From a virus, in the IMG/VR virus record IMGVR_UViG_3300021365_000133, positions 1-22,164 of that record: DNA of 22,164 nucleotides, one strand, 5' to 3'. Shown one piece after another: positions 6,260-21,404 of the stretch; positions within the stretch are counted from its first letter, which is position 1; each line of letters begins with the position of its first letter. Made by a program: the position numbers and the translations under genes. The notes beneath the pieces were generated by a model. That model was not told the origin of the DNA and did no database searches. It was given only the letters and a program-made list of their open reading frames with translations.

Positions 6260-6266
6260 ACTAAGA

Positions 6267-6291
6267 TAACTATTTTTAATTATTTTGTTTT
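6267..6291 (-). promoter_or_regulatory. Late-promoter motif, copy for the portal/lysis unit
   Basis: Minus strand: AAAAC (6291-6287), 8 nt, then TAAAAATAGTTA (6278-6267). It follows the terminator at 6296-6324 directly and ends 7 nt before the ATG at 6259, so transcription would have to restart here. If TAGTTA acts as the -10 box the message would be almost leaderless. One of four copies that share all 12 core bases. Confidence 0.65.
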
Positions 6292-6295
6292 AAAT

Positions 6296-6324
6296 AAAAA
6301 AAGCCTCACATAATGCAAGGCTTT
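6296..6324 (-). terminator. Intrinsic terminator after the tail-tube-like gene
   Basis: On the minus strand AAAGCCT (6324-6318) pairs with AGGCTTT (6306-6300). With TGC/GTG inside it makes a 10-bp stem with a 5-nt loop, followed by a run of Ts (complement of 6296-6302). It lies 24 nt after the stop of the 175-aa gene and separates it from the portal unit. Classic rho-independent form. Confidence 0.85.
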
Positions 6325-6348
6325 AATTAGTATTTAAGGTATTCTTTA

Positions 6349-6876
6349 TTATACTCCTTCAGTAACTGTAAAACCTACAGCAGAAATAGTATCTCCTAAG
6401 AAGTTAGCAGGTGCTTTCTCCATTCCTGAGAATGTTAAAGTATATCCACTCATATCTCCCATAGAAGCTCCAGATACGATAGTACCACCAGATACATCTA
6501 ATCCGTGTTCTAAACCAGCAACAAATACGTTTCCGTTATTGTCTTCTACTAAAATAGTAGGACTTCCGAAAGCTAATAACTTAACTGTCTTATGGTCTTC
6601 TTTGGTTAATTTAGTTAATTGAAGCTCTAAAACTTGTTCAAAAGTAGTAGTTCCATTCTCACGAGAAGAAGTAATGTTCTCCGTATAAGTAGAAGCTCCT
6701 TTGATGTCAAACTTGTATGCAGAAGGTGTTCCTGCAACAGCATCAATAACATCTGTGTCTGTAGAGTCATAGGTAACAGCACCTAAGTCTCCTTTGTTAA
6801 CGAAGTAAACAGCGTTTAATCCACCAACTGAATCTTTACAAGGCTCTAAACGACCTCTTGAAATATCACAACTCAT
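6349..6876 (-). CDS. Probable major tail tube protein
   Basis: A 175-residue beta-rich structural protein. It starts MSCDISRGRLEPCKDSVGGL and contains AVYFVNKGDLG, TSSRENGTTTFEQVLELQL (about 69-87) and ILVEDNNGNVFVAGLEHG (about 107-124). These segments are familiar from an abundant but poorly named structural protein of Flavobacteriia siphophages. The tail tube reading rests on size, beta content and its own strong terminators; a capsid decoration protein is the main alternative. It lies between the capsid terminator (6901-6938) and its own terminator (6296-6324), as expected for a highly expressed virion protein. A degraded late-motif copy (10 of 12 bases) lies just upstream of its start. 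Confidence 0.55.
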   Translation of the reverse strand: MSCDISRGRLEPCKDSVGGLNAVYFVNKGDLGAVTYDSTDTDVIDAVAGTPSAYKFDIKGASTYTENITSSRENGTTTFEQVLELQLTKLTKEDHKTVKLLAFGSPTILVEDNNGNVFVAGLEHGLDVSGGTIVSGASMGDMSGYTLTFSGMEKAPANFLGDTISAVGFTVTEGV

Positions 6877-6900
6877 TATTTATATATTTTTAAAAGTTAA

Positions 6901-6938
6901 TAAAAAAGGGTAAGCAGATTAACTACCTACCCTTTTTA
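6901..6938. terminator. Terminator after the major capsid gene
   Basis: AAAAAGGGTA (6903-6912) and TACCCTTTTT (6928-6937) form a 10-bp stem with a 15-nt loop. On the minus strand it is followed by further T residues. It starts about 19 nt beyond the capsid stop and before the tail-tube-like gene. It probably ends most capsid transcripts while allowing some read-through. The symmetric A and T runs would let it work on both strands. Confidence 0.75.
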
Positions 6939-6956
6939 GTTTATATTATACTAATC

Positions 6957-7907
6957 TTAGTTAGCAGCGTTAACGATTCCGTAAGTTACGATATCTTCAA
7001 CAATTCCATACTGAACACCAGCAGTAAATCTCATAATGATTCTTACGTTTTGAGAACCATCTAAGTCAGCCATATCTAAAATCTTAACTTCGTTTTGGTC
7101 TGACATCAAACCAGTTCCGAAATGTAAGTTATCTTTAGTAGTAGCAATCATAGTATCAGAAGCAAGTCCGTTAGCCATAAAGATTTTTACACCATCAAAG
7201 CTCTCGATATTGATATTCTGATTGTTTCCTTTATCTTGGAAACCAGCAGCTCCTTGACCTCCAGATTGGAAACCACCTAAAGCTCTCTTGTAAGCTCTAA
7301 ATACGTTTTGAGCAACATAAATCATTAAGTCATCTCTTCCGTATAAAGCAGCAGGAATAGCATCTACAACTTTTCCTAATTCAGCTACAACGTTAGAAGC
7401 GTCTACAGTAGTACCAGCAACTTCGTTTGCAGCAGGTAAATCAGCATCAGCAGCTAATAAAGTAGAAAAACCATCATACTCTCCAGCAGTAGCGTTAGCT
7501 CCTCTCCATACATTGATTTCTTGTTTCTGTGCTACTTTAGCAGCAACGTGACCGATTAAATAGTCTTGGAAAGAAGAAGGTAAGTTATCGAAAGCAGAAT
7601 ATCCCATTGAGATAGCATCCCAGTCAGAACGGAAATCTTTCTTACATAATTCTAAGTTTACTTGAAATTCTTCTGGTTGAAGGATTCTTTCAGTAAGTGT
7701 TAATGTAGAAGTGTCAGCGAAATCACAAGTACCATCTTTTACGATACCGTCTAATTCTAATCTTTTTACAACTTCTTTAAATTTAACGTTTGGTCTAATA
7801 GTTAAACCTCCGTTAGCGATTGTGTTACCAGCTAATAAAGCTGCCGAGATGTATTTCCCAGCACTTTCTCCAGCATAGGTAGTAGTAATACTTGTACTTG
7901 TTGCCAT
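6957..7907 (-). CDS. Major capsid protein (HK97 fold expected)
   Basis: A 316-residue shell protein. Stretches I recognise from Bacteroidota phage capsid proteins are ILQPEEFQVNLELCKKDF (about 95-112), FQDYLIGHVAAKVAQKQE (helix, about 127-144) and the C-terminal VRIIMRFTAGVQYGIVEDIV. Alternating helices and beta strands fit the HK97 fold. It lies 29 nt after the scaffold gene and is followed by a strong terminator, both normal for the most abundant virion protein. Codon use looks richer in optimal A/T-ending codons with fewer rare triplets than neighbours, consistent with high expression. The prohead protease is about 5 kb upstream, not adjacent. Confidence 0.82.
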   Translation of the reverse strand: MATSTSITTTYAGESAGKYISAALLAGNTIANGGLTIRPNVKFKEVVKRLELDGIVKDGTCDFADTSTLTLTERILQPEEFQVNLELCKKDFRSDWDAISMGYSAFDNLPSSFQDYLIGHVAAKVAQKQEINVWRGANATAGEYDGFSTLLAADADLPAANEVAGTTVDASNVVAELGKVVDAIPAALYGRDDLMIYVAQNVFRAYKRALGGFQSGGQGAAGFQDKGNNQNINIESFDGVKIFMANGLASDTMIATTKDNLHFGTGLMSDQNEVKILDMADLDGSQNVRIIMRFTAGVQYGIVEDIVTYGIVNAAN

Positions 7908-7936
7908 AATTTTAGCGAATTTTAAATTTAATTTAA

Positions 7937-8470
7937 TTAATTATTAATCATTGACCACACTCGTTCGGCAGCAGTCATTCCTTTGTTATTAAAATTTTTC
8001 TGTCTAGTCTCAGTTACACTCTCAGGAGAATGCACTACTTCTTCTTCTACTTCTTCAGAAAGCTCTACAGCCTCTTTTTCTTCAGCAGATAATTTAGCAG
8101 GAACATCAGCCTCAGCATAATCAGATTTGTCTTCCATCATTGCTTTAATCATAGATAACAATTCTTGCTTAACTTGAGATAGTTCTTCTTGAGTAGCAAA
8201 GTTCATTTGAACTGGTGCTTCCACTGCAGGTGCAGCTTCTTTCTTAGGCTCTTCTTTCTCTTCAGCTAATTCAACTGCTTCTTCAATTACCTCTTCTTTA
8301 GTCTCTTCTGTAGATAACTCTACCTCTTCAACTTTTTCTTCGATAACCTCTTCAGCAACCTCTTCTGTAGATAAGACAACCTCTTCTGTAGCCTCAACTT
8401 CCTTAGCAACTTCCTCTTTCGATAAGCCTACTAATTCTTTGATGCTTGTAAGAATTTCTTTACTGTTCAT
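7937..8470 (-). CDS. Scaffolding protein, Glu-rich coiled coil
   Basis: A 177-residue, extremely acidic protein placed immediately before the major capsid gene, as expected for an internal capsid scaffold. Residues 18-75 are Glu/Val repeats (STEEVAEEVIEEKVEEVELS and a second related copy), suggesting internal duplication. Residues 94-115 (EELSQVKQELLSMIKAMM) form a clear heptad helix. The C-terminus NNKGMTAAERVWSMINN is the capsid-binding type of tail that I recall from scaffolds of related phages. It is the first gene of a late unit, with a promoter motif 25 nt upstream. It is a likely substrate of the XkdF-like protease. Confidence 0.72.
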   Translation of the reverse strand: MNSKEILTSIKELVGLSKEEVAKEVEATEEVVLSTEEVAEEVIEEKVEEVELSTEETKEEVIEEAVELAEEKEEPKKEAAPAVEAPVQMNFATQEELSQVKQELLSMIKAMMEDKSDYAEADVPAKLSAEEKEAVELSEEVEEEVVHSPESVTETRQKNFNNKGMTAAERVWSMINN

Positions 8471-8495
8471 AATTGATTGTTTTTATATATTAATA

Positions 8496-8520
8496 TAACT
8501 ATTTTTATTCTAACTGTTTT
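8496..8520 (-). promoter_or_regulatory. Late-promoter motif, copy for the scaffold/capsid unit
   Basis: Minus strand: AAAAC (8520-8516), 8 nt, TAAAAATAGTTA (8507-8496). It ends 25 nt before the scaffold ATG and follows the hairpin at 8544-8575. Same spacing as the copies at 6267 and 13500. Confidence 0.65.
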
Positions 8521-8543
8521 ATATTCAAACATATAACACTAAT

Positions 8544-8575
8544 AACCAAAGGGTTAACTTAATAACCCTCTGGCT
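8544..8575 (-). terminator. Terminator-like hairpin after the large fibre gene
   Basis: On the minus strand the arms 8575-8563 and 8556-8544 form a 13-bp stem (two G-U pairs) around a 6-nt loop, starting 9 nt beyond the fibre stop at 8585. The tail, TTATTAGTGTTA, is only moderately U-rich. It separates the fibre unit from the scaffold/capsid unit, whose promoter motif follows at once. Confidence 0.6.
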
Positions 8576-8584
8576 TGTAGTTTG

Positions 8585-11500
8585 TTATGTTAATCCGTTA
8601 ATGTTCACAGTTTCTATATCATTAGATACCATACTGTTAAACTGCAACTCAGTGGTGTTTTGGTCTTCAGGTCCAGCTTGATTTCGAATACCGTTAGGGT
8701 AAGCGTCATAAGTACCATCTCCCATTAACCATACTTGAGTTGCACGATAACAACTTTCAGTACCAATAGCAAAGTTAGAAAAGTCTCCTGCTGAAGTAAT
8801 AGGTCTAAATAGTTCACCAATTTTATAATCATCCATCCACTTTGTAGGGTCAGTAATCATTAAATCAATTTCAGTATCAGTAGGCATAGGTTGATTAATT
8901 CTCAATGTAGTTACTACCATAGAAGCTACTTTACCTTGAAAACTTCTATTAGAACCTCTACCACCTATAGTTAACTCTCCTGTAATAGCTTTATCCATAT
9001 CAGCTCCAGTGCTTGTCCAAGCTGAAGAAGTTGATAAGTTAGAACCAATAGTCCAGTTATTACTTCCACTATTCATTAATCTAATATCAAACATTGCTGC
9101 TAATGCAGTTGCTGTAGCGTTTGAACCACTTTGTCTAGTTCCGTTATTAGCTATGTAAACTCCGTACCAATCATTGTGCCCAAGTGCTGTTGCTTGAATC
9201 GTACATTCGTTATACCCTTGTCCTTCACGTCCCCAACCGTAGTATAGTTTCTTGCTAGAGTCTAGTCTTAAATACATATTGTCATCATTTGTTCCAGCTC
9301 CTTCTCCACTATTCCAAATATGTTGGTTTGACGAAACATTGTCTATCTTGAATACTATAGCAGTAGCAAAAGGTCTAACACTACTACCATTAGCAGTATA
9401 ACCTGAATTACTAGGTGCAGCAATGTTCGTAGCATAACCATTCATATGCAAAGGACTTACTGTATAGTAGTTAGCTGCTTGTTTTAAGTACTCACTACCA
9501 CCACTAAAATCTAAAGCCTTAGTCCAAGATGTATCGTTAGTTTGAACTGGAGCTACATCTGTAGCTGTTATAGTTAGACTACCAGTTGAACTACCATAAG
9601 AGTTAGCTCTTGTTACTGTAACAGTATAAGTAGTATCTGCTCCAACATCAGTTAAAGTACCTTGAATAGTAGAATAGTTATCATATACTAATCCACTTCC
9701 ACTAGGTGTAATAGATACGCTAGTAGACCAAGATGCACCTGCAGGAGTTACTTGTAAATTTACAGCAGTACCTTCCTCTTGAGTTATATCACTACCACTA
9801 AATTGAGTAGGTGTTAAATCAGAGTTAGTTAAGCTAGTTATCTCGGTAAACAAAACTGTCTGCCCGTCAAATACCATATTGTAGGGAGCGCTTACTCCTG
9901 CCATTTGTCCGTTATCAGGCATATACCAAGTAGTGTTTGTAGGGTCGTCAGCGTATGTATGTGTATGCGTTACGCCTTCAGATACTCCTGCTGTAGTCTC
10001 GTGATAGTACTTAGCCTCTTCTTCAGTAGCGAATAAAGGGTAGTTAAATACTCCATCAGGGCTCTCTATGTGTCTGAAATACATAGTAGGTGCTGCAGTT
10101 AATTGACCTTTTGATAAGGACTCGAATGTAGCTCCCACATCTCTACCTATATACATAAGTCTATAATCTCCATTCACAGCAGCAGAGGATAAGTGTTTGC
10201 TTACGATAAAGTTAACACCATCTGTAGAGCTCCACACTGTAAGTTTGCCTTGATTGTCAAAACCTATCCTAAAGTTAGTTGCTGCAAATCTGTTACCTTC
10301 AGTAGCAGGTAATCCCGACCAATTATGTTGATTTAAAGTTACAGCACCTAAGTTGTTAATAGGTTGACCGAAGTATACATAAGGGTTTATTAAGTCTGTA
10401 GAAGTGTCAGCGGCAATAGTTGCAATGGAATGTGTGTCCGCATCAACTAAAGAAACTGTATGGTTTGAACCTAAGTTCACTTCAAACTCGAAGTATTCTC
10501 CTAATGCACTTAGTCCTTCTTCAGTGATAAATCCATTATCTGAATTAGTACCTGAAGCTGTTGCAATCCCATCATTTAAAGTACCTAAGGCATCTCCTAA
10601 TAGAGTTATATTTGTGTCTCCAATAGTAGTAGGTGTGTCATCTACTTTTAATAAGTGAACCTTTGGCAAGCTAAATACTCTAGCGCCTGTGTGATTAGTT
10701 TTAATACCTAGCCTGTATTCAGAACCTTGAGGTACAGGATATGAAGTTCTAGCGTGAGGCTCCCAAGTTACACCATCTCTTAAGGTATCTATAGATATAA
10801 ACCCATTCTCATCAAGACCTACTCTTACTTTGATAGGGTCTCCGTTTAACCAATCAGTTTGCTCTTGAGTACCTGTGAAGTTGTACCATCCACTTCTGTA
10901 ACTAGCAGAAGTATTAGCTCCGTAGTTAGTCCAAGAACCATTAGGCGTTGGGTGAAACCAATGTGAAAATTGATATCCACTATGTCCTGAGTTAGATATT
11001 CCAAAAGTAGTAGGGTCAGCATAAGTTGAATTACCGTTGTAATATCCTGCATCATAACTATCTTGAGTATGTACTAAACCAAAGCCAATAGTACCTTCTA
11101 CTCTAATATCAAAAGTAAAGTACTCTCCTGCTTGGTCTATAGTCTCAGTAGACAATAAACCATTCTGAGAGTTAGTGCTAGTAGAACCATAAACATCATT
11201 CCCTACAGGGTCAAGTCCATATCCTATATAAGATACAGTAGTGTCTACACCACTTACATCAGCTATCATAGTTGAGTAAGGGTCTGATATCACAACAGAT
11301 TCAAAAGCTCCTACAGTAAATAACTCATTTAAGTAGTTTATAACGTCATTTAAACCACCGCTAATATGATTACCTTCTCCATTACATACGTTTGTATGGT
11401 CTAGTTTTGTAAAGTGAATTATACTACCTAATTCAGATTGTATGGTTATTAGTCCATCTCCTGTATTTGTAGCTTTAATTGTGTTTACACCATAACTATA

Positions 11501-11863
11501 TCCGTTATCTAACATTATAGAAGTACTTGTATCATCTAGTTTGAAACATACGGATACATCTGTTAGGTCAGTACCTCCACCACCTAGTCCAACTACATTG
11601 GCTTGTGATGTTATATAGTCTGCAGCTTCTTGAGCATCTGCAAAACTGTTACCATCTCTATCTACAAACTCTGTATATGGTATTTTATAGAACTCATACT
11701 CAGTGATTCCTGTTTCAGAAGTAATAACATCGTTTACTACATTTACTGCATTTGAGTCTTGAGAATCAACCTCTCCACTTAAACAAGCGTTCCAATATGT
11801 AGGGTTAGAACTTCCTTCAAAGTTTATACAGTTTCCCTGTTCGTTTCTTAATATCTTTATCAT
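8585..11863 (-). CDS. Large modular tail fibre/adhesin
   Basis: A 1092-residue probable host-recognition protein. Residues 1-190 form an attachment region. Two homologous beta-sandwich modules follow (about 230-402 and 438-582), sharing TNSQNG/TNSDNG, GEYFTFD/GEYFEFE, a DGVTWE/DGVNFI segment and YRLGI/YRLMY. Then come a short marine-phage-type module with YPLFATEEEAKYY (608-620) and WYMPDNG (646-652), an Ig/cadherin-like domain (about 695-775, TYTVTVTRANSYGSS), a LamG/concanavalin-like lectin domain (from about 785, LDFSGGSEYLK) and a C-terminal tip. No catalytic site seen. It lies 4 nt after the 259-aa fibre protein, so the two probably assemble together. Module duplication suggests growth by recombination. 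Confidence 0.68.
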   Translation of the reverse strand: MIKILRNEQGNCINFEGSSNPTYWNACLSGEVDSQDSNAVNVVNDVITSETGITEYEFYKIPYTEFVDRDGNSFADAQEAADYITSQANVVGLGGGGTDLTDVSVCFKLDDTSTSIMLDNGYSYGVNTIKATNTGDGLITIQSELGSIIHFTKLDHTNVCNGEGNHISGGLNDVINYLNELFTVGAFESVVISDPYSTMIADVSGVDTTVSYIGYGLDPVGNDVYGSTSTNSQNGLLSTETIDQAGEYFTFDIRVEGTIGFGLVHTQDSYDAGYYNGNSTYADPTTFGISNSGHSGYQFSHWFHPTPNGSWTNYGANTSASYRSGWYNFTGTQEQTDWLNGDPIKVRVGLDENGFISIDTLRDGVTWEPHARTSYPVPQGSEYRLGIKTNHTGARVFSLPKVHLLKVDDTPTTIGDTNITLLGDALGTLNDGIATASGTNSDNGFITEEGLSALGEYFEFEVNLGSNHTVSLVDADTHSIATIAADTSTDLINPYVYFGQPINNLGAVTLNQHNWSGLPATEGNRFAATNFRIGFDNQGKLTVWSSTDGVNFIVSKHLSSAAVNGDYRLMYIGRDVGATFESLSKGQLTAAPTMYFRHIESPDGVFNYPLFATEEEAKYYHETTAGVSEGVTHTHTYADDPTNTTWYMPDNGQMAGVSAPYNMVFDGQTVLFTEITSLTNSDLTPTQFSGSDITQEEGTAVNLQVTPAGASWSTSVSITPSGSGLVYDNYSTIQGTLTDVGADTTYTVTVTRANSYGSSTGSLTITATDVAPVQTNDTSWTKALDFSGGSEYLKQAANYYTVSPLHMNGYATNIAAPSNSGYTANGSSVRPFATAIVFKIDNVSSNQHIWNSGEGAGTNDDNMYLRLDSSKKLYYGWGREGQGYNECTIQATALGHNDWYGVYIANNGTRQSGSNATATALAAMFDIRLMNSGSNNWTIGSNLSTSSAWTSTGADMDKAITGELTIGGRGSNRSFQGKVASMVVTTLRINQPMPTDTEIDLMITDPTKWMDDYKIGELFRPITSAGDFSNFAIGTESCYRATQVWLMGDGTYDAYPNGIRNQAGPEDQNTTELQFNSMVSNDIETVNINGLT

Positions 11864-11867
11864 TTTA

Positions 11868-12647
11868 TTATCTTATTACGGTTATTAATATTCCAATAGG
11901 TTCAATTATAATAGGGTTGTCTGATTTAATAGCAGGAAGAGTCAAAGCATTTACATCTTCATTACTTGTTATCCACGCTGAAATCTCTACCCTGTTTAAG
12001 TACGAGTTACCTACAGTACCACCACCATAAAATATAGGCTGTGCTGTTAATGGAAAGGTAAATGTAATATCGTCACTGTCATTCCTGTTAGAATACCACA
12101 AAGCAGGCTCTACAGTTGTATTGGCTATCTGAGGTATTACATTAAAGTCAAAACGCACTCTTAATTGGTCTCCATACACTAACTCGTTTAATTTAATTCT
12201 ACCTGTACTACCTTCAAATCCTGTAGTTCCGTTAGAAGGGTAATTATCGTTAAATACATAATCGTAATCCATTAAAGATGTAACTCCACTAGGTAAGTTA
12301 GCTCCTTGAAATAAACCTATACCTGTATTTCCACTAGGTGTTGGTGTAGTCCAATAAGGATTATCGTTAGCTAAATGATTAGCTCTATTAAAACTAAACA
12401 CTTTGTATAAATCTGCATCTACATCTTGTGCGGTGTAGCTTACAGATGAGTCTACAAATGCTGTAGTTCTTGAGTATCCTGCTTGACCACTAGAACCATC
12501 TGCACTAATCCATTCAGTTCCATTCCAAAACTTATTTACTTTTTCATCAGTGTCGTAAACAATAACACTTTCTTCTGGCTTTAAAGATGCTATCTCAGCA
12601 GACGTATGTTTGTCTGGTCTAACATTAAAGCTTGTGTTTCTAATCAT
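11868..12647 (-). CDS. Tail fibre / receptor-binding protein
   Basis: A 259-residue protein with the fibre signature VIVYDTDEKVNKFWNGTEWI (about 28-47), a strand-turn-strand motif seen in many phage fibres that display head domains. A flexible Ser/Gly stretch follows, and then a beta-rich C-terminal domain (about 75-259) with LRVRFDFNVIP and RVEISAWITS, probably a trimeric jelly-roll head. The sequence gives no sugar-binding residues. It lies between a small Cys-rich gene and the 1092-aa fibre in one transcription unit. A neck or collar fibre is an alternative, because the unit is led by a head protease rather than tail genes. Confidence 0.55.
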   Translation of the reverse strand: MIRNTSFNVRPDKHTSAEIASLKPEESVIVYDTDEKVNKFWNGTEWISADGSSGQAGYSRTTAFVDSSVSYTAQDVDADLYKVFSFNRANHLANDNPYWTTPTPSGNTGIGLFQGANLPSGVTSLMDYDYVFNDNYPSNGTTGFEGSTGRIKLNELVYGDQLRVRFDFNVIPQIANTTVEPALWYSNRNDSDDITFTFPLTAQPIFYGGGTVGNSYLNRVEISAWITSNEDVNALTLPAIKSDNPIIIEPIGILITVIR

Positions 12648-12658
12648 AAAATTTATTT

Positions 12659-12889
12659 TTAATTATTAATAGTTCTTGTTGTGTCTATGTTTGTAACATT
12701 ACCCTCTTGTGAGGTCTTTACAGAAGCAGTATGTGTTTCTACCCTTTCAGTATCTTGGTTAACAATATTAGATACGTGGTCGTCATTATGTATAGAGCCA
12801 ATACCTTGTTTCCAATAGTATTGACACTTACAATTCTTACAGTCTTTTATGGTATATGTATTCTTTGATTTACAGTACTTTGCTCTCAT
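12659..12889 (-). CDS. Small Cys-rich protein of unknown function
   Basis: A 76-residue protein. The N-terminal third has four cysteines, C6, C17, C20 and C22 (YCKSK, then DCKNCKC), which could hold a metal ion or a disulfide. The rest is polar, with many Thr, Asn and Val and no hydrophobic core (VSNIVNQDTERVETHTASVK), perhaps an extended strand-rich tail. Its start overlaps the end of the protease gene by 20 nt and its stop lies 11 nt before the fibre gene, so it is firmly embedded in the unit. Fibre assembly factor is possible by position only. Confidence 0.5.
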   Translation of the reverse strand: MRAKYCKSKNTYTIKDCKNCKCQYYWKQGIGSIHNDDHVSNIVNQDTERVETHTASVKTSQEGNVTNIDTTRTINN

Positions 12890-13481
12890 TCTCTAGGTAG
12901 TCTTTTATTTCTTGTAATAATATTTTAGCTTCTTCTTCAGTCATATCCTCTACAACACTCATATCCTCTCTCTTATCACTAAAGATACCCTCAATACTTA
13001 AACCTAAATATTTACCATTCTTTACATCTTGCCATACAGCATCATTATCTATCTTCATAACTACTGCCCAATCTCCTTCTTTAGCATTTAAGTTATATAA
13101 AGCAGTTTTATCTTGTTTAGGGTCTTCTACTATCCAAGATTCAATTACAGATACACCAGAAGTAAATTCTTGATGCTCTAACGTTGTATTATTGTTTTTA
13201 AGACGTTTTAAGTATAGCTCAGACGCTTTTCTTACAGTTTCCTTAGAGAATGTTATATTATACTCGTAATCGCCTCTACGACGATATATGAGCTTATCTG
13301 GAACTAATGCTAATCCTACAATAATTCTTTTCTCTTTATCTACAGTTTTAAACTCAACTTTATGTTGGTCTTTACTAAGAGCTACAAAGTTCTCTTCTAT
13401 AGCAGGAAACTCTACTAGAGAGATAGCGTTTATGCCCTCTTCTCCTAATTGTTCGTCTATAATTAATTCTATTGTATCCAT
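12870..13481 (-). CDS. Prohead protease, XkdF-like serine protease
   Basis: A 203-residue maturation protease that would cut scaffold and capsid proteins inside the prohead. It opens with INAISLVEFPAIEENF (17-32), the usual start of this family. It has the core strand IIVGLALVPDKLIYRR (53-68), the probable catalytic histidine in TLEH (H103), then ESWIVEDP (114-121), and the probable nucleophile S162 in GLSIEG. The acidic C-terminus is short compared with relatives that carry an extra domain. A domain of the kind I recall at the C-terminus of such relatives is instead found on the portal protein here. It is the first gene of a late unit, with a promoter motif 18 nt upstream. It is oddly separated from the capsid genes by two fibre genes. 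Confidence 0.78.
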   Translation of the reverse strand: MDTIELIIDEQLGEEGINAISLVEFPAIEENFVALSKDQHKVEFKTVDKEKRIIVGLALVPDKLIYRRRGDYEYNITFSKETVRKASELYLKRLKNNNTTLEHQEFTSGVSVIESWIVEDPKQDKTALYNLNAKEGDWAVVMKIDNDAVWQDVKNGKYLGLSIEGIFSDKREDMSVVEDMTEEEAKILLQEIKDYLENESKVL

Positions 13482-13499
13482 AATATTTATTTAATAAGT

Positions 13500-13524
13500 T
13501 AACTATTTTTATTATTTCCGTTTT
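13500..13524 (-). promoter_or_regulatory. Late-promoter motif, copy for the protease/fibre unit
   Basis: Minus strand: AAAAC (13524-13520), 8 nt, TAAAAATAGTTA (13511-13500). It ends 18 nt before the protease ATG and sits in the 47-nt gap after the tape measure stop. No hairpin is visible upstream of this copy, so the tail transcript may read through. Confidence 0.65.
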
Positions 13525-13528
13525 ATTT

Positions 13529-15520
13529 TTAACCAAAGCTTGCAGAACTCGTAATTTCTTCGTCTAACTGCTGTTGATTTGTTATATCTCGACCAACAAC
13601 GTATGCTTGTAATGGTTGGTCAAATCTACCTTGTAATGTATTAGCTAGTTGGTTTTCCCTAGAAGCTCCTGCTAAATTAAAGTTAAAACTTCTATCGTTA
13701 CCACCAGAACCACCTCCACCTAAAGCACCAGCAGTTGATGTAGCTCCTGCACTAGATTGAAACTTTTGTCTAGCCAATGTAGCTACGTTTAATAACCCAC
13801 TAGTTATTGTTGCAGTCATTGCTATACCTTTACTTAGAGGGTCTGGGAACATTGGGCTAGCTTGAACCTGCGCAGCAGCTAGGTAAGTAGATATTAATGC
13901 TTGAGAGATATTAGCAGCCTTTTGCATTTTAAATCTTTTCTTCTCTATCTTTTCTTGCTTCTTTCTTAACTCCTCATCATTTCTAGCTATCTCTAATTGT
14001 ATGCTTTTTCTTTCTGATTTAGACAAGTTCTCGTTATTTAATCTTTCTCTAAGTTCATTGTTTAAAGCGTTAGTCTTGTTCTGCTCTATAGTCATTTCTC
14101 TTTCAAACTCAGAATCCATAAACCCAGATATAGCTTGACTTGTTTCCATCATACCTTCTATTCTAGCAGTTCTTCTATCTAGTTCAAATTGCTTTAATTG
14201 CTCTGGAGATAGTCCACCTCTCTCTCCGAAAGATAAATCAGCCTCAGCTTTCTGTATATTAGCATCTTCCGCTATACCTATTACTTTAGCATAGTATTTT
14301 CTCCAAGCCTTTACTAATTCAGAATTTGCATCGCTAGTTTCTAGCAATCTCTTCATATGGAAATCTCTCTGTATTATAAGTCTACTAGCTTTATCTTTAG
14401 TTGAAAGTAGTGCTATCTTTTCGTTTACGGATTGTATTTGTCTTACGTAAGATAAAGCATCTTTCCTTAATTGCTTTGTATCAAAAGCCTTAACTCTATC
14501 TCTTTTAGCTTTCTTTAATTTAGAGCCACCTGATTTTGATGGGTCTAGTGCTAATCCTTGACTTATTCTCTCTATTCTTTCTAGTATAGGGTCTGATTCT
14601 TTTTTTACACCTTTAGCTAAGTCTTTGAATTCAGCTATTAACTCAGCGTTAGTCTTTTTTCTTAATGTTAGACTCTTCTGACCCATAGAGTAAGATTTGT
14701 TGACTAACTTTTCCAACTCAATACCTTCTTCTTCTAAAAGTCCTTTAATTAACTTTAATTTCTCTTCTTGGTTTTCAGTAGCGTTAACTGCATCTATCCT
14801 CATTTGTTTAGATAGTAGCTCTGAATTTTCTTCAACCAGCTTATCCATTTCTATCCTAGCTGCTTGAGCTAGTGTGTATTGTTTTATTTTAAATCTAACT
14901 TCATCTAGGTTCTTTCCGTACTCTAGGTCAGCCTCAGTAAGCGTAGGAACTCCTTTTATTAACTCTTGAACAACTACAGCTCTTCTTTCTTCAGATATAC
15001 TAACATCTTCTAATTCGTTTACGTATCCTCTCATAACTAAGCCATTAGCGTAAACTTTCTTAGTCAAGTCTCCAACACCTTTCTCAGCTTTCTTGTTAGC
15101 TCCAAAGAAGAAGTCTAACGCAGATACAGCAGCAGTTATAGCAAACACAATACCTAGAGGACCCATAAGCTGTTTTCTCATAAGTCCTATAGCGTTCCCT
15201 AACCCTCCAGCCTTTGAAGATGCAGTACCCATCTGAGAAACCAACTGAGTAATGTTATTCGCCATACCTCTAATACCATAAGGTGCATCGGATATAACCC
15301 TAGAAAGTTCCATTGTTGCAGAAGTAGCAGAACCTGTAGCATCTCCTAAGTTTTTCATATTTTTGGCTGCATCTGGAACACCCTTAGCTATATCTTTACG
15401 CATCTTTAAGAAAGCCTTGTCAGCTTGCTCAAAACTCTTAGTTAAACCATCTATGCTTATCTTACCAGACTTAGCATCTACTTCTACTCTATAAATAATA
15501 TTGTTTACATCTTTAGCCAT
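13529..15520 (-). CDS. Tape measure protein
   Basis: A 663-residue protein that sets tail length and is ejected with DNA. The N-terminal part contains VISDAPYGIRGMANNITQL (about 75-93), a stretch typical of Bacteroidota phage tape measures. A hydrophobic segment follows at about 116-140 (GPLGIVFAITAAVSALDFFF). A long charged helical region, including repeated heptads around 480-540 (RKKQEKIEKKRFKMQKAA), leads to a second hydrophobic stretch near 560-600 and a Gly/Ser-rich end. At about 0.15 nm per residue the tail would be close to 100 nm, an estimate from the general rule. Its start overlaps the stop of the 49-aa gene. Tape measure genes usually follow the chaperone directly; here five genes intervene. 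Confidence 0.85.
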   Translation of the reverse strand: MAKDVNNIIYRVEVDAKSGKISIDGLTKSFEQADKAFLKMRKDIAKGVPDAAKNMKNLGDATGSATSATMELSRVISDAPYGIRGMANNITQLVSQMGTASSKAGGLGNAIGLMRKQLMGPLGIVFAITAAVSALDFFFGANKKAEKGVGDLTKKVYANGLVMRGYVNELEDVSISEERRAVVVQELIKGVPTLTEADLEYGKNLDEVRFKIKQYTLAQAARIEMDKLVEENSELLSKQMRIDAVNATENQEEKLKLIKGLLEEEGIELEKLVNKSYSMGQKSLTLRKKTNAELIAEFKDLAKGVKKESDPILERIERISQGLALDPSKSGGSKLKKAKRDRVKAFDTKQLRKDALSYVRQIQSVNEKIALLSTKDKASRLIIQRDFHMKRLLETSDANSELVKAWRKYYAKVIGIAEDANIQKAEADLSFGERGGLSPEQLKQFELDRRTARIEGMMETSQAISGFMDSEFEREMTIEQNKTNALNNELRERLNNENLSKSERKSIQLEIARNDEELRKKQEKIEKKRFKMQKAANISQALISTYLAAAQVQASPMFPDPLSKGIAMTATITSGLLNVATLARQKFQSSAGATSTAGALGGGGSGGNDRSFNFNLAGASRENQLANTLQGRFDQPLQAYVVGRDITNQQQLDEEITSSASFG

Positions 15521-15669
15521 TATTTCAATAGTTTTTTACGTTTGTTATTCATTCTTAGCTCTGCAAAGGTTGTAGGTAATTCATACAACCCTTTTGCTAT
15601 TTGTATATCCTTATCTGCTACTAGCCAGTCATCACTAGCTAGTAATTCTAATGCTTGTTTTATTATCAT
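15520..15669 (-). CDS. Small protein between hub and tape measure genes
   Basis: A 49-residue frame joins the two large tail genes. Its ATG overlaps the hub-like gene stop as ATGA, and its TAA overlaps the tape measure start as TAATG. The sequence begins MIIKQALELLASDDWLVADK and ends in the basic RMNNKRKKLLK. It looks like a compact helical protein with a DNA- or partner-binding basic tail. I know no family. Overlap with both neighbours and good coding character (Leu/Glu/Ala helix, Trp) make it a likely real gene. Its position suggests a tape-measure chaperone or tail-tip factor, which is inference. Confidence 0.65.
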   Translation of the reverse strand: MIIKQALELLASDDWLVADKDIQIAKGLYELPTTFAELRMNNKRKKLLK

Positions 15670-18503
15670 AATGTTCTTATTTGTACTGAGTTACTTATAT
15701 CTGAATAGTTTGGTGTTGCGTCTTTTGCTCTAACATAAAATTCATAAACTGTATTACTTGATAATCCTAATAAATTAAGACTTGTTCCTGTTACAGTCTG
15801 ATTTAACACTCCATCTACATATACCTCGTAACCTGTTACAGCTATATTGTCTGTACTAGCATTCCAAGATAAACCTGCTGATACATCTGTATAACCAGTA
15901 ACAATTAAGTTAGATGGTGCTGTAGGAGCTTCTGTATCTGAAGAGCCTGTAGAGGCTACTAATACTGAAGTCAATGAGGACTCGTTACCTTGAGCATCAT
16001 AAGATGATATCTGTATATCGTAAGACGTATTCTCATCTAATCCTTGAATAACATAAGAAGTCTGTCTAAGGAGTGTTTGATTCAATACTCCGTCTACATA
16101 AATCTTGTAACCCTTAACTATCTCTCCACTTGGGTTAGCTAACCAACCTATAATTATTTTATCAGTACTAATAGTAGGTATTTCATATAAGCCTACAGGT
16201 GTTGTTAAAGGGTCTCCAACAGGGTCTGCATCTTCACTAGAGAAGAATTTAAGTATTAACTCAAGGTCTGTAATACCTGTAGTTATATTAGTTCTTATGT
16301 TGTTAATTAAGAATTTCTCTCCATTCATCAACAATGTATCATTAATCTTATACTTTAATAAGAAAGATATACTAGCTTTCATTTTTAATTTAAACACTCT
16401 GGTCTTTTTGTCAAATACGCTTGATATATAATCACTATAGTACTTTCTGAATAACCCTCTAGCAATTAGTGTAAAGGTAAACTCATCAAACTCTCCGTTA
16501 AAGTTAATGCTCTTCGTTCCTTGCTCTACATACCAATCCGTACCAGTCCAATACTCTAAAGCATTTGAATTACTAGCTCTATTGTATTGAGTAATTAATG
16601 GTTTACCTAAGAATCCTATTTTAAACTTAGATGAGTCAACAGGCTGAACTACATTAAAGAACAATATAGGTTTAGTCATAACTTCGTTTTGGTCTTTATC
16701 TACCAACCACCCATTACCGAAGCTAGTCTTTTCTGTTATATTATCTTCATCATATAACCTCTCGTAATACATTTTCTCAAAAGGTAATTTAACTTTATAG
16801 TCTTTACCGTCAAATATTAAACTAGCATCTGTTCCGTTAGCTACAGACTCATACTCTAAGTTACCATAGTCTGTTTGAGATAACTCGTTATTGTTTATTA
16901 TTCCAAAAGTCTTAGGTTCTGAGAAGTTAAAACTTATATTCTTAAACAAGTCCATTCTATTTACTTCCATTTCACTATTATCAACCATATTGGTTATATC
17001 TATAGTGTTTCCTGTATTGTAGAAGTCTATTAAAGGTTTTACTTGTATTTGACCATCACTACCAACTATAGCAGTAAGGTTGAATGCTTTAAATATACCT
17101 GTTAAGAAGTCTACTATCTTCATCTTTGGCATATTCTTTGTTATCTCTATGTTTTGAATTAATGATTGAGTTCCAGATACTCTAGGTAGGTAGTAACTTG
17201 ATTCCGTTACAGGAACACCACCATCGTTTATAAAGTTTTGTACATCACAAATGTATTCATCGCTTCCTGCATCGGATACTTTAAACCTAACCTTCTTTAG
17301 CTCAACCTCTAAGTCAAAAGTTGCTAACTCGTTTTCTGTAGAGCTTACTCTAACGTTTATGTTATCCCACTCTCTTCTATTCTCTGAACATAATACTGCT
17401 GTCTTTTGAGTGTCTCCATTTAATCCTACAAACCTTTCTATAACAATGTTTCCATCTAGTATTTCTAAGTCATACACAGGATTAGTGCCACCACCACTTT
17501 TAGCTACATTAGTTACATCAACTATGACGTGATATTGAAAAACCCTAACTCTACTAGGGCGTACATCCTCCCAATAGGTTGTCATAGGTCTTCTGTCTGT
17601 TCCACTACTTAATAAGAAGTCAGAATTGGTATTGTTAGTACCTATTCTGTAGGTTGTTGAAGTGTATGCGTTAGTAGACGACTTAGGCGCTAAAACTCCC
17701 TTATTGTTATGTAGTAACATATATAAATCATCAAACTCAGCAGTGCCAAAGAAGTCATCAGAGAAGTCTATACTAGAATACTTATCTTCAATAGCAGATA
17801 TGATATGTTTAACTTTTATAGCTGGTTTTAGGTTTAACCAGTTTATACCATAATTACCTAAACCCTCCTCATCGTATATATTAGCACTAAAACCTTGATT
17901 AAACTCTACAGGAGCTGTAGAACCATTAGAATCATAAAACCACTTCTCTGAAGCAGAAATAGATGGGTAAACTATATCTTTACCTGCACCTGTAATCATA
18001 CCTGTACTAGAAAGCTCTAATCCTGTTCTAAAACCATTATTTACGTTGTCTATGTTATAAGTATGGTTGTATTTATCTAAAGAAGATAACTCAGATAGCT
18101 CAGACACACCTATTACATTCTGTATCTTAGTTAAAGCACCAAAGAATGTTATCCTATAAGAATGAGGTCTTGAACCTTTAAGTGTAGCCTTAGTTAATCT
18201 AGCATAACCTACTTTAAATAATACTCCGTTTAAGTATATCTCTGCTTTTTGCTTTATTCTAGCATCAAAGCCATTGGTTATATTAGAGTTATAATAATGC
18301 TTAAATATCCTATTGTTAGTTGGAGATGCAGGAACAGAAAATGTTTTAGAATAGTCTGTAAACACTTTAGAAATGTCTCTAACGTCTTGAAATGAAGAGT
18401 TAAGCTCTATTGACTCAAAATCAAAGAACTCTACTCTTTCAAATGTAGGCTCTCCTAATGGATTACCACTTGTATCTATATATAATTGAGGTTGTAAGTT
18501 CAT
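15666..18503 (-). CDS. Tail hub/baseplate-like protein with two fibronectin III domains
   Basis: A 945-residue tail-tip protein. Its N-terminus contains FQDVRDISKVFTDYSKTFSV (about 38-57) and GFDARIKQKAEIYLNGVLF (about 78-96), segments I recall from tail proteins of Flavobacteriia phages. A large beta-rich middle follows. Two fibronectin III domains form the end (about 765-854 and 855-945). Both contain the identical nine residues YVDGVLNQT, so they arose by duplication. FnIII domains on virions usually aid weak surface binding. The gene overlaps the preceding Dit-like gene as TAATG and is followed by the 49-aa gene and tape measure. Central hub (gp27-like) versus side protein cannot be decided from sequence alone. 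Confidence 0.65.
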   Translation of the reverse strand: MNLQPQLYIDTSGNPLGEPTFERVEFFDFESIELNSSFQDVRDISKVFTDYSKTFSVPASPTNNRIFKHYYNSNITNGFDARIKQKAEIYLNGVLFKVGYARLTKATLKGSRPHSYRITFFGALTKIQNVIGVSELSELSSLDKYNHTYNIDNVNNGFRTGLELSSTGMITGAGKDIVYPSISASEKWFYDSNGSTAPVEFNQGFSANIYDEEGLGNYGINWLNLKPAIKVKHIISAIEDKYSSIDFSDDFFGTAEFDDLYMLLHNNKGVLAPKSSTNAYTSTTYRIGTNNTNSDFLLSSGTDRRPMTTYWEDVRPSRVRVFQYHVIVDVTNVAKSGGGTNPVYDLEILDGNIVIERFVGLNGDTQKTAVLCSENRREWDNINVRVSSTENELATFDLEVELKKVRFKVSDAGSDEYICDVQNFINDGGVPVTESSYYLPRVSGTQSLIQNIEITKNMPKMKIVDFLTGIFKAFNLTAIVGSDGQIQVKPLIDFYNTGNTIDITNMVDNSEMEVNRMDLFKNISFNFSEPKTFGIINNNELSQTDYGNLEYESVANGTDASLIFDGKDYKVKLPFEKMYYERLYDEDNITEKTSFGNGWLVDKDQNEVMTKPILFFNVVQPVDSSKFKIGFLGKPLITQYNRASNSNALEYWTGTDWYVEQGTKSINFNGEFDEFTFTLIARGLFRKYYSDYISSVFDKKTRVFKLKMKASISFLLKYKINDTLLMNGEKFLINNIRTNITTGITDLELILKFFSSEDADPVGDPLTTPVGLYEIPTISTDKIIIGWLANPSGEIVKGYKIYVDGVLNQTLLRQTSYVIQGLDENTSYDIQISSYDAQGNESSLTSVLVASTGSSDTEAPTAPSNLIVTGYTDVSAGLSWNASTDNIAVTGYEVYVDGVLNQTVTGTSLNLLGLSSNTVYEFYVRAKDATPNYSDISNSVQIRTL

Positions 18504-19615
18504 TAAATTACGTCATCTATTATGTTATTACTAAATTCTACTTCTATTGTATAGTTTATAAGTTTGTCGTTAACTGATGTCTTTATTTTTAATGAAGAAT
18601 CGCTAATTTTAACAGCTTTAAGGACATCATTATCTGAATCTAATAGTTGAACCTCTTCAGACAACATAAGTTGCTTAAAAGACTCGTTTAGCTCTTCTGA
18701 GACAAATCCAGAGTTTAAAGTAATTGATTCTGTTCCGTTTTTACCATACTCTTTAGATGACCTAACAAGACCAGCATCTCTATCTCTACCTCCAGAACTT
18801 CTTTGTTTAAACTGATTAGCTCTAAACTCTTCAGCCTCAACACTCATAGATGATACTGACTTTTTAAAGAACCATAAGTCTTCCATTACACCATATTTAT
18901 TCTTAAATGTAATTCTGTATGGATTATACTTGCATTCTTCTATCTCTTTAACCTTGATAGTCTTAACTCCGTAGTCTGAAGATACTTGAATCTCGTCAAC
19001 ATTGATATTGCTATTACCTCCCCACCTAGATATTTTAGTTGAAAGGTTTGTGTAAGCAAGTGTATCTGTATAAACAGCACTGCCTTGATACATAAAATAA
19101 ACATAGACATTACTAGTTGTAGCATACTCTTTAGGGTTTAATATAGGTATTCTAAGGTTGTAGCCATCTAACTTATATATAGTATCTGAGCTACCAGCAT
19201 AGAAGCTATTGTTTTCTAGTTCAGTCACAAAGTCTTTATCTATTTTCTCTGAAGAATAAACATATCCATCTGTACAAAAGTAGTTACTAACTTGGTCTGC
19301 TTGTGCTACTCCATTTATCTCTCCACTAATAGTTACTGTAATATATCCGTTTTCATAGAACTTGAGATTATCTTCCCCAACAACACTTGTTATGTATTGA
19401 TTCCATACACCTACAAAAGAATAGTTAGGTGTGTAAGCCGAGCTACATAGCTTAGATATGTCAATAAAGTACTTATCTCTAAAATTTAAAACATATTCCT
19501 CTAAAACCTCTACAGCACCACCATCTATTCTTCCTACTTCTACTAAAGCAGATGCGTTAGCGTCTAATGTACCTCTACTTATATGAAAAGGACTTCTTGT
19601 TAATATTAACCCCAT
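18503..19615 (-). CDS. Tail protein, possibly distal tail (Dit)-like
   Basis: A 370-residue protein rich in beta strands and aromatic residues, e.g. YNPYRITFKNKYGVMEDLWF (about 230-249). A polar stretch with SSKEYGKNGTESITLNSGF (about 285-303) precedes a last domain, LINYTIEVEFSNN. I recall the 'G-x-x-E-D-LWFFKKS' kind of segment from uncharacterised tail proteins of related phages. It lies 2 nt after the gp10-like gene and overlaps the hub-like gene, where a distal tail protein would be expected. The Dit reading comes from position and fold type, not from a decisive motif. Confidence 0.5.
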   Translation of the reverse strand: MGLILTRSPFHISRGTLDANASALVEVGRIDGGAVEVLEEYVLNFRDKYFIDISKLCSSAYTPNYSFVGVWNQYITSVVGEDNLKFYENGYITVTISGEINGVAQADQVSNYFCTDGYVYSSEKIDKDFVTELENNSFYAGSSDTIYKLDGYNLRIPILNPKEYATTSNVYVYFMYQGSAVYTDTLAYTNLSTKISRWGGNSNINVDEIQVSSDYGVKTIKVKEIEECKYNPYRITFKNKYGVMEDLWFFKKSVSSMSVEAEEFRANQFKQRSSGGRDRDAGLVRSSKEYGKNGTESITLNSGFVSEELNESFKQLMLSEEVQLLDSDNDVLKAVKISDSSLKIKTSVNDKLINYTIEVEFSNNIIDDVI

Positions 19616-19617
19616 TT

Positions 19618-20121
19618 TTATTTATTTATTTGTTCTAGTAAATCTTTTTTATAACCTTCAAGTATCATACTTGTTAACTTTTTCTCCATAGAGCTTTTAA
19701 CCTGAGTTATAAAGCCACTACCTTTGTATCCAAAACGCTTAGATATACCTTTACGTCTTATACTTCTTGATAAAACATAACCTAATGACTTCCAAGTTCT
19801 ATCTGTAACTTTCTGAAACCTACCTTTCTTGTCTCTAACTTGAGGTCTGATACCTTTTGCCTTTGCCCATTGTATAATGTTTAACTGCATCTTCTCAAAC
19901 TCCTCTTTGCTTCCTTTACCTCCTGTAGATATACCTTCTGACAAAGCTCCTGCGTACTTTTCTGCTTTAACCTGTAGTTCATTAGCTACAACGCTATAAT
20001 CAAAAGACTTATCTAGCCTTCCAGACGCTTTAAAACCATCTTCTGATGCAGCAACCCTAAGTTTGCTTTTTATTAGCTTACCAGCTTCGTTTAATGCTTC
20101 GTTTAAGTGTTTATTCTCCAT
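19618..20121 (-). CDS. HK97 gp10-like / virion morphogenesis protein
   Basis: A 167-residue basic protein with the pattern of gp10-like head-tail or tail completion proteins. An N-terminal helix (LNEALNEAGKLIKSKL) is followed by GRLDKSFDYSVVANELQV (a strand pair after 'L-x-x-S'), KYAGALSEG (the conserved Y-A-x-x-x-E-G turn), IIQWAKAKGIRPQVRDKKGR (about 84-103) and a C-terminal RKGISKRFGYKGSGF plus helix. This order fits the family well. The start overlaps the preceding gene as TAATG. It probably acts at the junction between head and tail or in tail tube maturation. Confidence 0.65.
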   Translation of the reverse strand: MENKHLNEALNEAGKLIKSKLRVAASEDGFKASGRLDKSFDYSVVANELQVKAEKYAGALSEGISTGGKGSKEEFEKMQLNIIQWAKAKGIRPQVRDKKGRFQKVTDRTWKSLGYVLSRSIRRKGISKRFGYKGSGFITQVKSSMEKKLTSMILEGYKKDLLEQINK

Positions 20122-20579
20122 TAACAGATGCTTATTCCGTTAGGTACTTCTATTTCTATATCTGTAGTCCATCCTGCTAATACATTTCCGTATTTCTCTT
20201 TAAATGGCTCTGCTACAGGTGTTGTTGTTACCTGAAACTTAGAGTTGAACAAGTCTCCACGCATTAACTTCATTATAAGTGAGTTAATTACCTGAAACTG
20301 AGTATTCATAACATCGTGTAGGTTATCATTACCATAAAACTCGTCAAAATCACTAGGAGATTGGTTGTAGTCAACTATATCAGCACATAACACCTTTATT
20401 CTGAATGTAATAGTTCTTTCTCCGTAAGATGCGCTATCGATTAGTAGATGCGACAATGGGAACATTGTCGTTTTATCTAAATCTAAGTCAGTTATGTCTC
20501 CGTAGGAGACCGTATTTACAGAAGGATTGCTTCTAAGCTCATCCCTTAATACATCTAATATGTCGTAAACGTGTTTCAT
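20121..20579 (-). CDS. Tail terminator/completion-like protein
   Basis: A 152-residue protein of a type common in Flavobacteriia phages. It has an N-terminal helix (VYDILDVLRDELRSNP), TVSYGDITDLDL, FPLSHLLIDSA (41-51), FYGNDNLHDVMNTQFQVINS (about 81-100) and an end LAGWTTDIEIEVPNGISIC. The mixed alpha/beta layout and position beside a gp10-like gene suggest tail completion (lambda gpU-like), but I know no experiment on this family. Its ATG overlaps the stop of the frameshifted chaperone frame as TAATG, evidence that the second frame is translated. A perfect inverted repeat lies inside the gene at 20451-20470. Confidence 0.6.
   Translation of the reverse strand: MKHVYDILDVLRDELRSNPSVNTVSYGDITDLDLDKTTMFPLSHLLIDSASYGERTITFRIKVLCADIVDYNQSPSDFDEFYGNDNLHDVMNTQFQVINSLIMKLMRGDLFNSKFQVTTTPVAEPFKEKYGNVLAGWTTDIEIEVPNGISIC
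20451..20470 (+). terminator. Perfect hairpin with U-run on the antisense side of a tail gene
   Basis: CGACAATG (20451-20458) and CATTGTCG (20463-20470) form a perfect 8-bp stem around GGAA, followed on the plus strand by TTTTAT. It has the form of a short intrinsic terminator for plus-strand (antisense) transcription. It lies wholly within the coding sequence of the 152-aa tail gene, so it may simply be a chance repeat. Confidence 0.35.
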
Positions 20580-20839
20580 TATCTTGTACTTTGTTTTATT
20601 AACTTATTCTCTAATTCGTTTTTCTCTTTAGCGTACTCTAGGTACATTAAGCATTGATGAATGGGGAGTGCTGTAACTTCGTCAATTCTTCTGACATCTC
20701 CTTGCGCAAGTTCAAGTATTGCTGGATAACCTTTCCATTTTCTTCCGAAACTACTTCTGAGTTGCTCTCCTTTTCCGTCTGATATTGACTGAGTATAGAG
20801 TCCATCGTATAATCCCCTAATTTTTTCACTAAACGATAA
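20579..20839 (-). CDS. Frameshift extension of the tail assembly chaperone (-1 frame)
   Basis: This frame is in -1 relation to the chaperone gene. It has a TAG directly before the T9 run (20846-20838), then stays open for 86 codons. Its later part reads like the second domain of gpG-GT-type chaperones: FGRKWKGYPAILELAQGDV, RRIDEV, then KEKNELENKL. It has no ATG near its beginning, so it must be reached by slippage. A slip on TTT TTT (codons 172-173) would yield a 259-residue fusion, against 236 without slipping. Its TAA overlaps the next gene's ATG as TAATG, like other junctions here. It probably binds the tape measure during tail assembly, as lambda gpGT does. Slippage could instead occur at the A6 run (20826-20821). 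Confidence 0.75.
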   Translation of the reverse strand, partial: LSFSEKIRGLYDGLYTQSISDGKGEQLRSSFGRKWKGYPAILELAQGDVRRIDEVTALPIHQCLMYLEYAKEKNELENKLIKQSTR

Positions 20840-21357
20840 AAAAAAACCCTAGCACCTAAAGCTACATCTATTGGCATCTCTTTCATAAGGTCTGCGTAAA
20901 AGTCTGTACCTTGATACTCGTGTATTCTATACTTACCTCCTATTTGCCATATTAACGGTCTGTATAAGACTGCCATAGCTCTATGTAAGCTCTTGTTATC
21001 CCAAATATAATTCTCTAAATCTTCCCATTCTCCGTAAGACATCTTATCTAAGTTTGGTATTAGTCCAAACTCAACCTCTACTCCATCAGAACCTACCATT
21101 TTAAAGGTGTTTACTAATGGTGTTTGTGAATTTAAGGTGTCGTATAAGTGAGCTATAATAGTATCAAAGCTAGAAACAGGTATTTTAAGTAATGATTTTA
21201 AATCTACATCACAAAATATCTCTAACATCTTTTTATTTAGAAAATCATTAGATTCGTTGTCTTTATTCTTGTTGTAAACGTCAATGAACTTAACCCAGTC
21301 CTTTAATTTAATGCCTCTTAGTGACTTAGGTATATTTAAGTTAAAATTTTGATTCAT
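20647..21357 (-). CDS. Tail assembly chaperone, short (unshifted) form
   Basis: A 236-residue protein, first in the late block. Typical segments for this group in Bacteroidota phages are FGLIPNLDKMSYGEWEDLEN (about 98-117), HRAMAVLYRPL (about 125-135), YRIHEYQG and the helix DVALGARVFFYRLVKKL. The last 63 residues share DNA with the -1 frame extension, and this stretch is visibly more GC-rich than its surroundings, as expected for dual coding. The short form should be made in excess, the fusion as a minority, as in lambda gpG/gpGT. Upstream lies a late-promoter motif 22 nt before the ATG. Lack of similarity to lambda gpG itself is normal for this family. Confidence 0.75.
   Translation of the reverse strand: MNQNFNLNIPKSLRGIKLKDWVKFIDVYNKNKDNESNDFLNKKMLEIFCDVDLKSLLKIPVSSFDTIIAHLYDTLNSQTPLVNTFKMVGSDGVEVEFGLIPNLDKMSYGEWEDLENYIWDNKSLHRAMAVLYRPLIWQIGGKYRIHEYQGTDFYADLMKEMPIDVALGARVFFYRLVKKLGDYTMDSILSQYQTEKESNSEVVSEENGKVIQQYLNLRKEMSEELTKLQHSPFINA
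20838..20846 (-). promoter_or_regulatory. Slippery T9 run, putative -1 frameshift site
   Basis: On the minus strand nine Ts are read as G-TT TTT TTT T-AT. A one-base backward slip keeps perfect pairing for both Phe codons (pattern T TTT TTT). The -1 frame carries a stop directly upstream and is open downstream. A 5-bp inverted repeat (ATCGT at 20837-20833, ACGAT at 20808-20804) follows, a weak stimulator candidate. Polymerase slippage on the same run would have an equivalent effect. Confidence 0.65.
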
Positions 21358-21379
21358 ATATTATTTTTGTATATAAAGA

Positions 21380-21404
21380 TAACTATTTTTAAATTATATG
21401 TGTT
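21380..21404 (-). promoter_or_regulatory. Late-promoter motif, copy for the tail unit
   Basis: Minus strand: AACAC (21404-21400, one base from AAAAC), 8 nt, TAAAAATAGTTA (21391-21380). It ends 22 nt before the chaperone ATG and lies back to back with the plus-strand promoter at 21411-21441 in an 87-nt divergent region. Confidence 0.62.

Follow-up and report, generated by a model that had tools for sequence, protein, structure and literature searches.

Tail assembly chaperone genes, whose frameshift is conserved among dsDNA phages, are a classical case both of recoding and of proteins made in fixed stoichiometry. Phage lambda makes gpG and the fusion gpGT at G_GGA_AAG, and the E/E' genes of phage P2 shift at T_TTT_TTG. 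The ribosome needs a heptamer of the form X_XXY_YYZ in phase, for which a run of seven (1+3+3) or eight T's would suffice. Stimulators such as a Shine-Dalgarno sequence 5' of the slip site or a hairpin or pseudoknot 3' of it are common in ribosomal -1 frameshifting, but not obligatory. All tail-chaperone fusions in the literature that we surveyed were attributed to ribosomal frameshifting, and no description of transcriptional slippage in a tail chaperone was found in a search largely confined to journals open without subscription.

Slippage by RNA polymerase is helped by an upstream terminator-like hairpin. In Shigella mxiE, slippage joins two ORFs (PMC1088944). A run of nine A or T is the length at which many bacterial genomes start to avoid such runs (PMC1088944), and the RNA-DNA hybrid within RNA polymerase spans 9-10 bp (PMC5009743). 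Here, a viral fragment of 22,164 bp (the whole record, hereafter the window) and its relatives were analysed. On balance, the proportion of short to long chaperone in a large lineage of Bacteroidota phages seems to be set when RNA polymerase slips on nine or ten T's, with about 60 dual-coded codons following the slip.

Locus and reading frames

The features of the window that bear on the junction are as follows.

20647..21357, minus strand: short form, a 0-frame ORF of 236 aa, probable tail assembly chaperone (gpG-like); relatives match over the full length
20838..20846, minus strand: putatively slippery T9 run, in codons G-TT TTT TTT T-AT; every relative with the junction has T9 or T10 here
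20839..20845, minus strand: in-phase T_TTT_TTT heptamer inside the T9 run, candidate ribosomal slip site
20579..20839, minus strand: -1 frame, C-terminal (gpT-like) half of the predicted long form, 86 codons past the junction plus the stop TAA
20647..20837, minus strand: dual-coded overlap of 191 nt, with purifying selection on both frames
20647..20838, minus strand: part of the short form past the junction (0-frame tail), 63 codons and a stop, modelled as a helix with low confidence
20121..20579, minus strand: next gene, 152 aa, collinear with P12024S_41 of the Nonlabens phage; its start and the -1 frame stop share TAATG
13529..15520, minus strand: tape measure protein (probable), encoded in the same module; weak PHROG matches (phrog_15478, E 0.027; phrog_30292)

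The minus-strand sequence around the junction reads ...AGG GTT TTT TTT TAT CGT..., and the record holds no other T9 run. As the first-pass annotation had described, the -1 frame opens after a TAG immediately 5' of the run, continues for 86 codons and ends in a TAATG, which combines its TAA stop (20581-20579) with the ATG of the next gene. The 0 frame extends 63 codons past the junction; the long fusion would thus comprise 173 + 86 aa, and the short form 236 aa. Other details of that annotation held in part. The TAATG junction, which it placed throughout the block, recurs at several gene boundaries (20579, 20121, 18503, 5903) but not at every one. The overlap, described as unusually GC-rich, has 39% GC versus 34%, a moderate excess at about the 92nd percentile of 191-nt windows. 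The run-on of the short form by 63 residues was confirmed, but it is not peculiar to this phage, the family median being 58 codons. The short-form stop is itself a TAATG (20645-20649, minus strand), whose ATG lies in the -1 frame and could start a 22-aa reinitiation peptide; this ATG is not conserved as a start in P12024S.

Conservation of the run and of both frames

Of the 269 related loci in which both halves were detected, every one encodes the second half in the -1 frame. At 274 of 274 junctions the run is T9 (200) or T10 (74), as it is in 83 of 83 further loci (80 viral and three bacterial; 75 T9, eight T10), and no T7, T8 or T11 run occurs among these 274 + 83 family junctions. The loci of the separate scans partly overlap, and the first set represents 239 distinct 300-nt contexts. 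Queries from either frame retrieve identical loci, and profile searches add many more, such that hundreds of diverse relatives are seen to share the T run and the two frames. The homology of the C half starts at the T run in all members. For comparison, 1.2 Mb of flanking sequence contains 21 other T9 runs and no T10. The first-pass annotation had named a changed run length, or relatives conserving one frame only, as grounds against its reading; the length and both frames are kept. An A6 run, which it had also mentioned, is replaced in relatives by GAGAAAA or GACAAAA; it was rejected as slip site, and the junction is therefore the T9.

The cultured members of the family, Nonlabens phages P12024S and P12024L, both carry T9, and tblastn matches in the phage collection were confined to Nonlabens phages. 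Two prophage-like loci were found, in Flavobacterium azizsancarii and Paenimyroides baculatum. The phage hosts of the family are Bacteroidota. In one relative (L412), the full-length alignment showed in-frame stops because one frame was read past the junction; the split gene, with its T9 and -1 half, reads normally.

The 63-codon overlap is dual-coded. Comparison of 36 independent close pairs gave, for 0-frame codon positions 1/2/3, 0.055/0.118/0.094 substitutions per site in the overlap and 0.069/0.040/0.251 upstream. Selection in the overlap is thus dominated by the -1 frame, whose silent rate is about half of the upstream rate, as expected if the 0 frame matters too. Synonymous recoding of the -1 frame brings a 0-frame stop after six codons (median), compared with the real median of 58, and none of 300 such simulations of the window kept the 0 frame open to 63 codons. 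The 0 frame is therefore open far beyond expectation, and the long overlap is a maintained norm of the family. The +1 frame closes within four codons past the run in 215 of the 239 contexts, so that other slippage products would be short. Together, these data show that the junction into the -1 frame at T9-10 is conserved and that the sequence after it codes in both frames.

Continuous homologues appear to exist as well. Two distant Bacteroidota genomes (L414:1114-1983 and L415:1078-1926) each carry one continuous ORF, of 290 and 283 aa, with no T run, which aligns across the junction with the fused family profile (217 columns, probability 97%, single-comparison E 5e-11). The C half alone gave no score in these genomes, so the claim of fused homologues depends on the full-length alignment. 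Both ORFs apparently encode a chaperone without a short form, and such homologues speak for the fusion as a product of the split gene.

Protein identity and genomic neighbourhood

The gene is probably a tail assembly chaperone gene, given weak matches to Phage_TAC_7, PHROG tail families and the HK97 chaperone together with its position in the tail module. The short form of the window had no match in Pfam and matched phrog_32199 (function unknown) alone. Among 104 family short forms, 12 weakly matched Phage_TAC_7 (PF10109, the P2 gpE family; best 8.4e-5), 27 matched the tail protein phrog_166, and five matched the tail assembly chaperone phrog_3140 (best 6.3e-4). The structure match to the HK97 gp13 chaperone (PDB 2ob9; Z 3.3, 67 residues, 4.0 Å) is below the informative level. 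Foldseek returned nothing from PDB at E <= 0.001, matches in BFVD were mainly uncharacterised phage proteins plus P12024S, and sequence searches of PDB with profiles of both halves gave no useful match. AlphaFold was run on the two halves separately, leaving out database sequence L010. The model of the -1 frame half (m9c52bdb39452) has a mean pLDDT of 82; in the short form, confidence is high over the part shared by both products and low over the 0-frame tail (200-236), which is modelled as a helix. As in known tail assembly chaperones, one gene holds a short and a long frame pair, with the C half in the -1 frame at all 269 loci (predicted products).

The gene lies on the same strand and in the same tail module as the probable tape measure gene, upstream of it. 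A chaperone gene of this kind usually adjoins the tape measure gene, whereas four genes intervene here. After the terminase, the tail module is collinear with that of P12024S. The gene order (4155-21357) is unusual: in the direction of transcription the tail genes lead, and the tape measure candidate is followed by an XkdF-like protease (12870-13481), a probable major capsid protein (6957-7907) and the portal (4155-5903). Further, a 107-aa Peptidase_M15_3 protein at 919-1242 (Pfam E 5e-9) is a probable endolysin. Immediately 5' of the chaperone gene lie 32 nt (21360-21391, minus strand) that recur with 88% identity at 8476-8507 (minus strand), upstream of a 177-aa gene (7937-8470), possibly as a shared late promoter or leader.

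The two halves are kept in databases as separate unknown families (phrog_32199 and phrog_38404), and GenBank holds them as P12024S_38 and P12024S_39 (JQ823122.1, 23136-23830). Gene callers thus split or truncate the chaperone gene, and hundreds of phage genomes carry it in two pieces or cut short.

Decoding at the T run

We consider transcriptional slippage at T9 the leading and a fairly probable explanation of the long chaperone fusion. Slippage itself, its transcriptional nature and the protein roles are what we infer from the sequences, as follows. While transcribing T9, RNA polymerase would occasionally slip, so that a minority of transcripts gain one U without template and carry U10 instead of U9. 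Read normally, the U10 mRNAs would give the fusion (...RVFF-LSFSEKIRG...), and the unslipped mRNA the short form. If the products act like lambda gpG and gpGT, the tape measure protein would be coated by the short form, made in excess, and recruitment of the tail tube subunit would fall to the rarer C-terminal domain.

The main alternative is programmed -1 frameshifting by the ribosome, in which tandem tRNA-Phe would slip from UUU UUU into the -1 frame on U_UUU_UUU and yield an identical fusion protein. We regard it as possible but the less probable course. It is the established mechanism for tail assembly chaperones, and longer U runs could add chances to slip. The heptamer T_TTT_TTT is in phase at all family junctions, although any T9 run contains one automatically, in any phase. 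What is conserved, however, is the length of the run and not the heptamer. The T run occurs in six codon-phase compositions, with at least 13 phase changes on a tree of 104 divergent members, and its length is always 9-10; the T7 and T8 runs that would keep the heptamer never occur. In the 0+3+3+3 phase the heptamer itself needs nine T's, and the discriminating phase is 1+3+3+2 (10 clusters). Extra 3' T's are found in 18 of 18 members with loss of 5' T's and in 21 of the 86 others. A paired phylogenetic sign test of this 5' loss and 3' gain, restricted to supported branches, gave 3 to 0 and is underpowered; with only three informative independent pairs, the compensation alone is not significant.

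The sharpest test concerns a T-to-C change at the last position of the heptamer, which alters neither protein: in the 0 frame TTT becomes TTC, and in the -1 frame TTA or TTG becomes CTA or CTG. Among 148 sequences in 62 clusters, T_TTT_TTC occurs in none, while matched dual-silent sites in the same overlaps carry C in 31%. A scan of the entire viral collection gave at least 121 sites with the T9 motif, of which 119 have both halves of the family and two the N half only; the nine matches to the corresponding T7C motif include no family member. Both U_UUU_UUC and U_UUU_UUU belong to the efficient class for Escherichia coli ribosomes (PMC4066793), a point in favour of ribosomal slipping on the T run; the absence of T_TTT_TTC is, for the same reason, not predicted by the ribosomal model. 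Judged from these comparisons, selection keeps nine or ten T's uninterrupted, although flanking T's may partly be kept by the hydrophobic residues of the two frames. Transcriptional slippage is expected to come with a conserved, phase-independent run of at least nine A or T, and T9-T10 is always present; this length matches the 9-10 bp of the RNA-DNA hybrid and the point from which many bacterial genomes avoid A/T runs. Because the length of the homopolymer rather than the heptamer is kept, the evidence points to transcriptional slippage.

Searches for stimulators gave little for either mechanism. No excess of Shine-Dalgarno sequences 5' of the run was seen in the family, nor any family-wide downstream hairpin, and this speaks against the ribosomal mechanism; a weak 8-bp hairpin adjoins the run in the window's own clade only and is broken in two members (L016 and L018). 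An upstream terminator-like hairpin was not above synonymous shuffles, being slightly less stable. In sum, a programmed -1 change at T9 that joins the N and C halves, as the first-pass annotation proposed, stands, but its assignment to ribosomal frameshifting in the manner of lambda gpG/gpGT is not established and is judged less likely.

Two further alternatives are very improbable. The halves might be separate genes, the downstream frame being translated by coupling or reinitiation, in keeping with their annotation as two CDSs in P12024S (P12024S_38 and _39) and with the -1-frame ATG held by the short-form stop TAATG at 20649-20645. However, the -1 frame has no ORF of at least 60 aa from ATG, GTG or TTG, and a product reinitiated at 20648, just 22 aa long, would lack the conserved core; moreover, homology is conserved from the run onward in every member, and homologues fused in frame exist. 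Equally doubtful is phase variation at the DNA level, with virions individually T8, T9 or T10. Homopolymeric runs are classical sites of such variation, but no off-phase genome was found in more than 350 loci, and all assembled junctions share the same frame relation. Least credible is an error or pseudogene, with a true run of T8 or T10 and one frame continuous: homopolymers are error-prone, but a frame relation and run length shared by hundreds of independent contigs, the isolates P12024S and P12024L and bacterial genomes exclude sequencing error and make the junction neither an assembly artefact nor an isolated oddity, while a 0 frame open so far beyond expectation argues against a pseudogene.

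Comparison with known systems

Among cultured phages, genes 38-39 of Nonlabens phage P12024S and 40-41 of P12024L were the only members of the family found. They are homologous, with a T9 run, the same frame relation and a collinear tail module; the 0-frame tail there is just 25 codons long, and the halves are annotated as two unrelated hypothetical proteins. The run of nine identical A or T likens the locus to Shigella mxiE, Thermus dnaX and IS elements with slippage at 9A or 9T, and, as in mxiE, one extra nucleotide would join two overlapping ORFs. Those are genes of a bacterial regulator, a polymerase subunit and transposases, for which slippage has been shown, whereas here it is inferred. 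The P2 gpE/E+E' family (Phage_TAC_7), the closest in Pfam by weak matches, shares a T-rich slip site and a shift to the -1 frame; its slip site is not homopolymeric over nine positions, unlike the T9-10 here.

As in lambda gpG/gpGT, a tail-module gene would give a short form and a rarer fusion to a C-terminal part in the -1 frame. Unlike lambda, the site is a T9-10 homopolymer and not G_GGA_AAG, about 60 dual-coded codons follow the shift rather than a few, several genes separate the chaperone from the likely tape measure gene, and the shift is probably transcriptional. The work done is probably the same as that of gpG/gpGT and the decoding step different. If so, it is the ratio that matters and not the decoding machine, the strategy of lambda having been reached with a different one, and ribosome and RNA polymerase could be compared in a clear natural experiment, as two solutions to one assembly problem.
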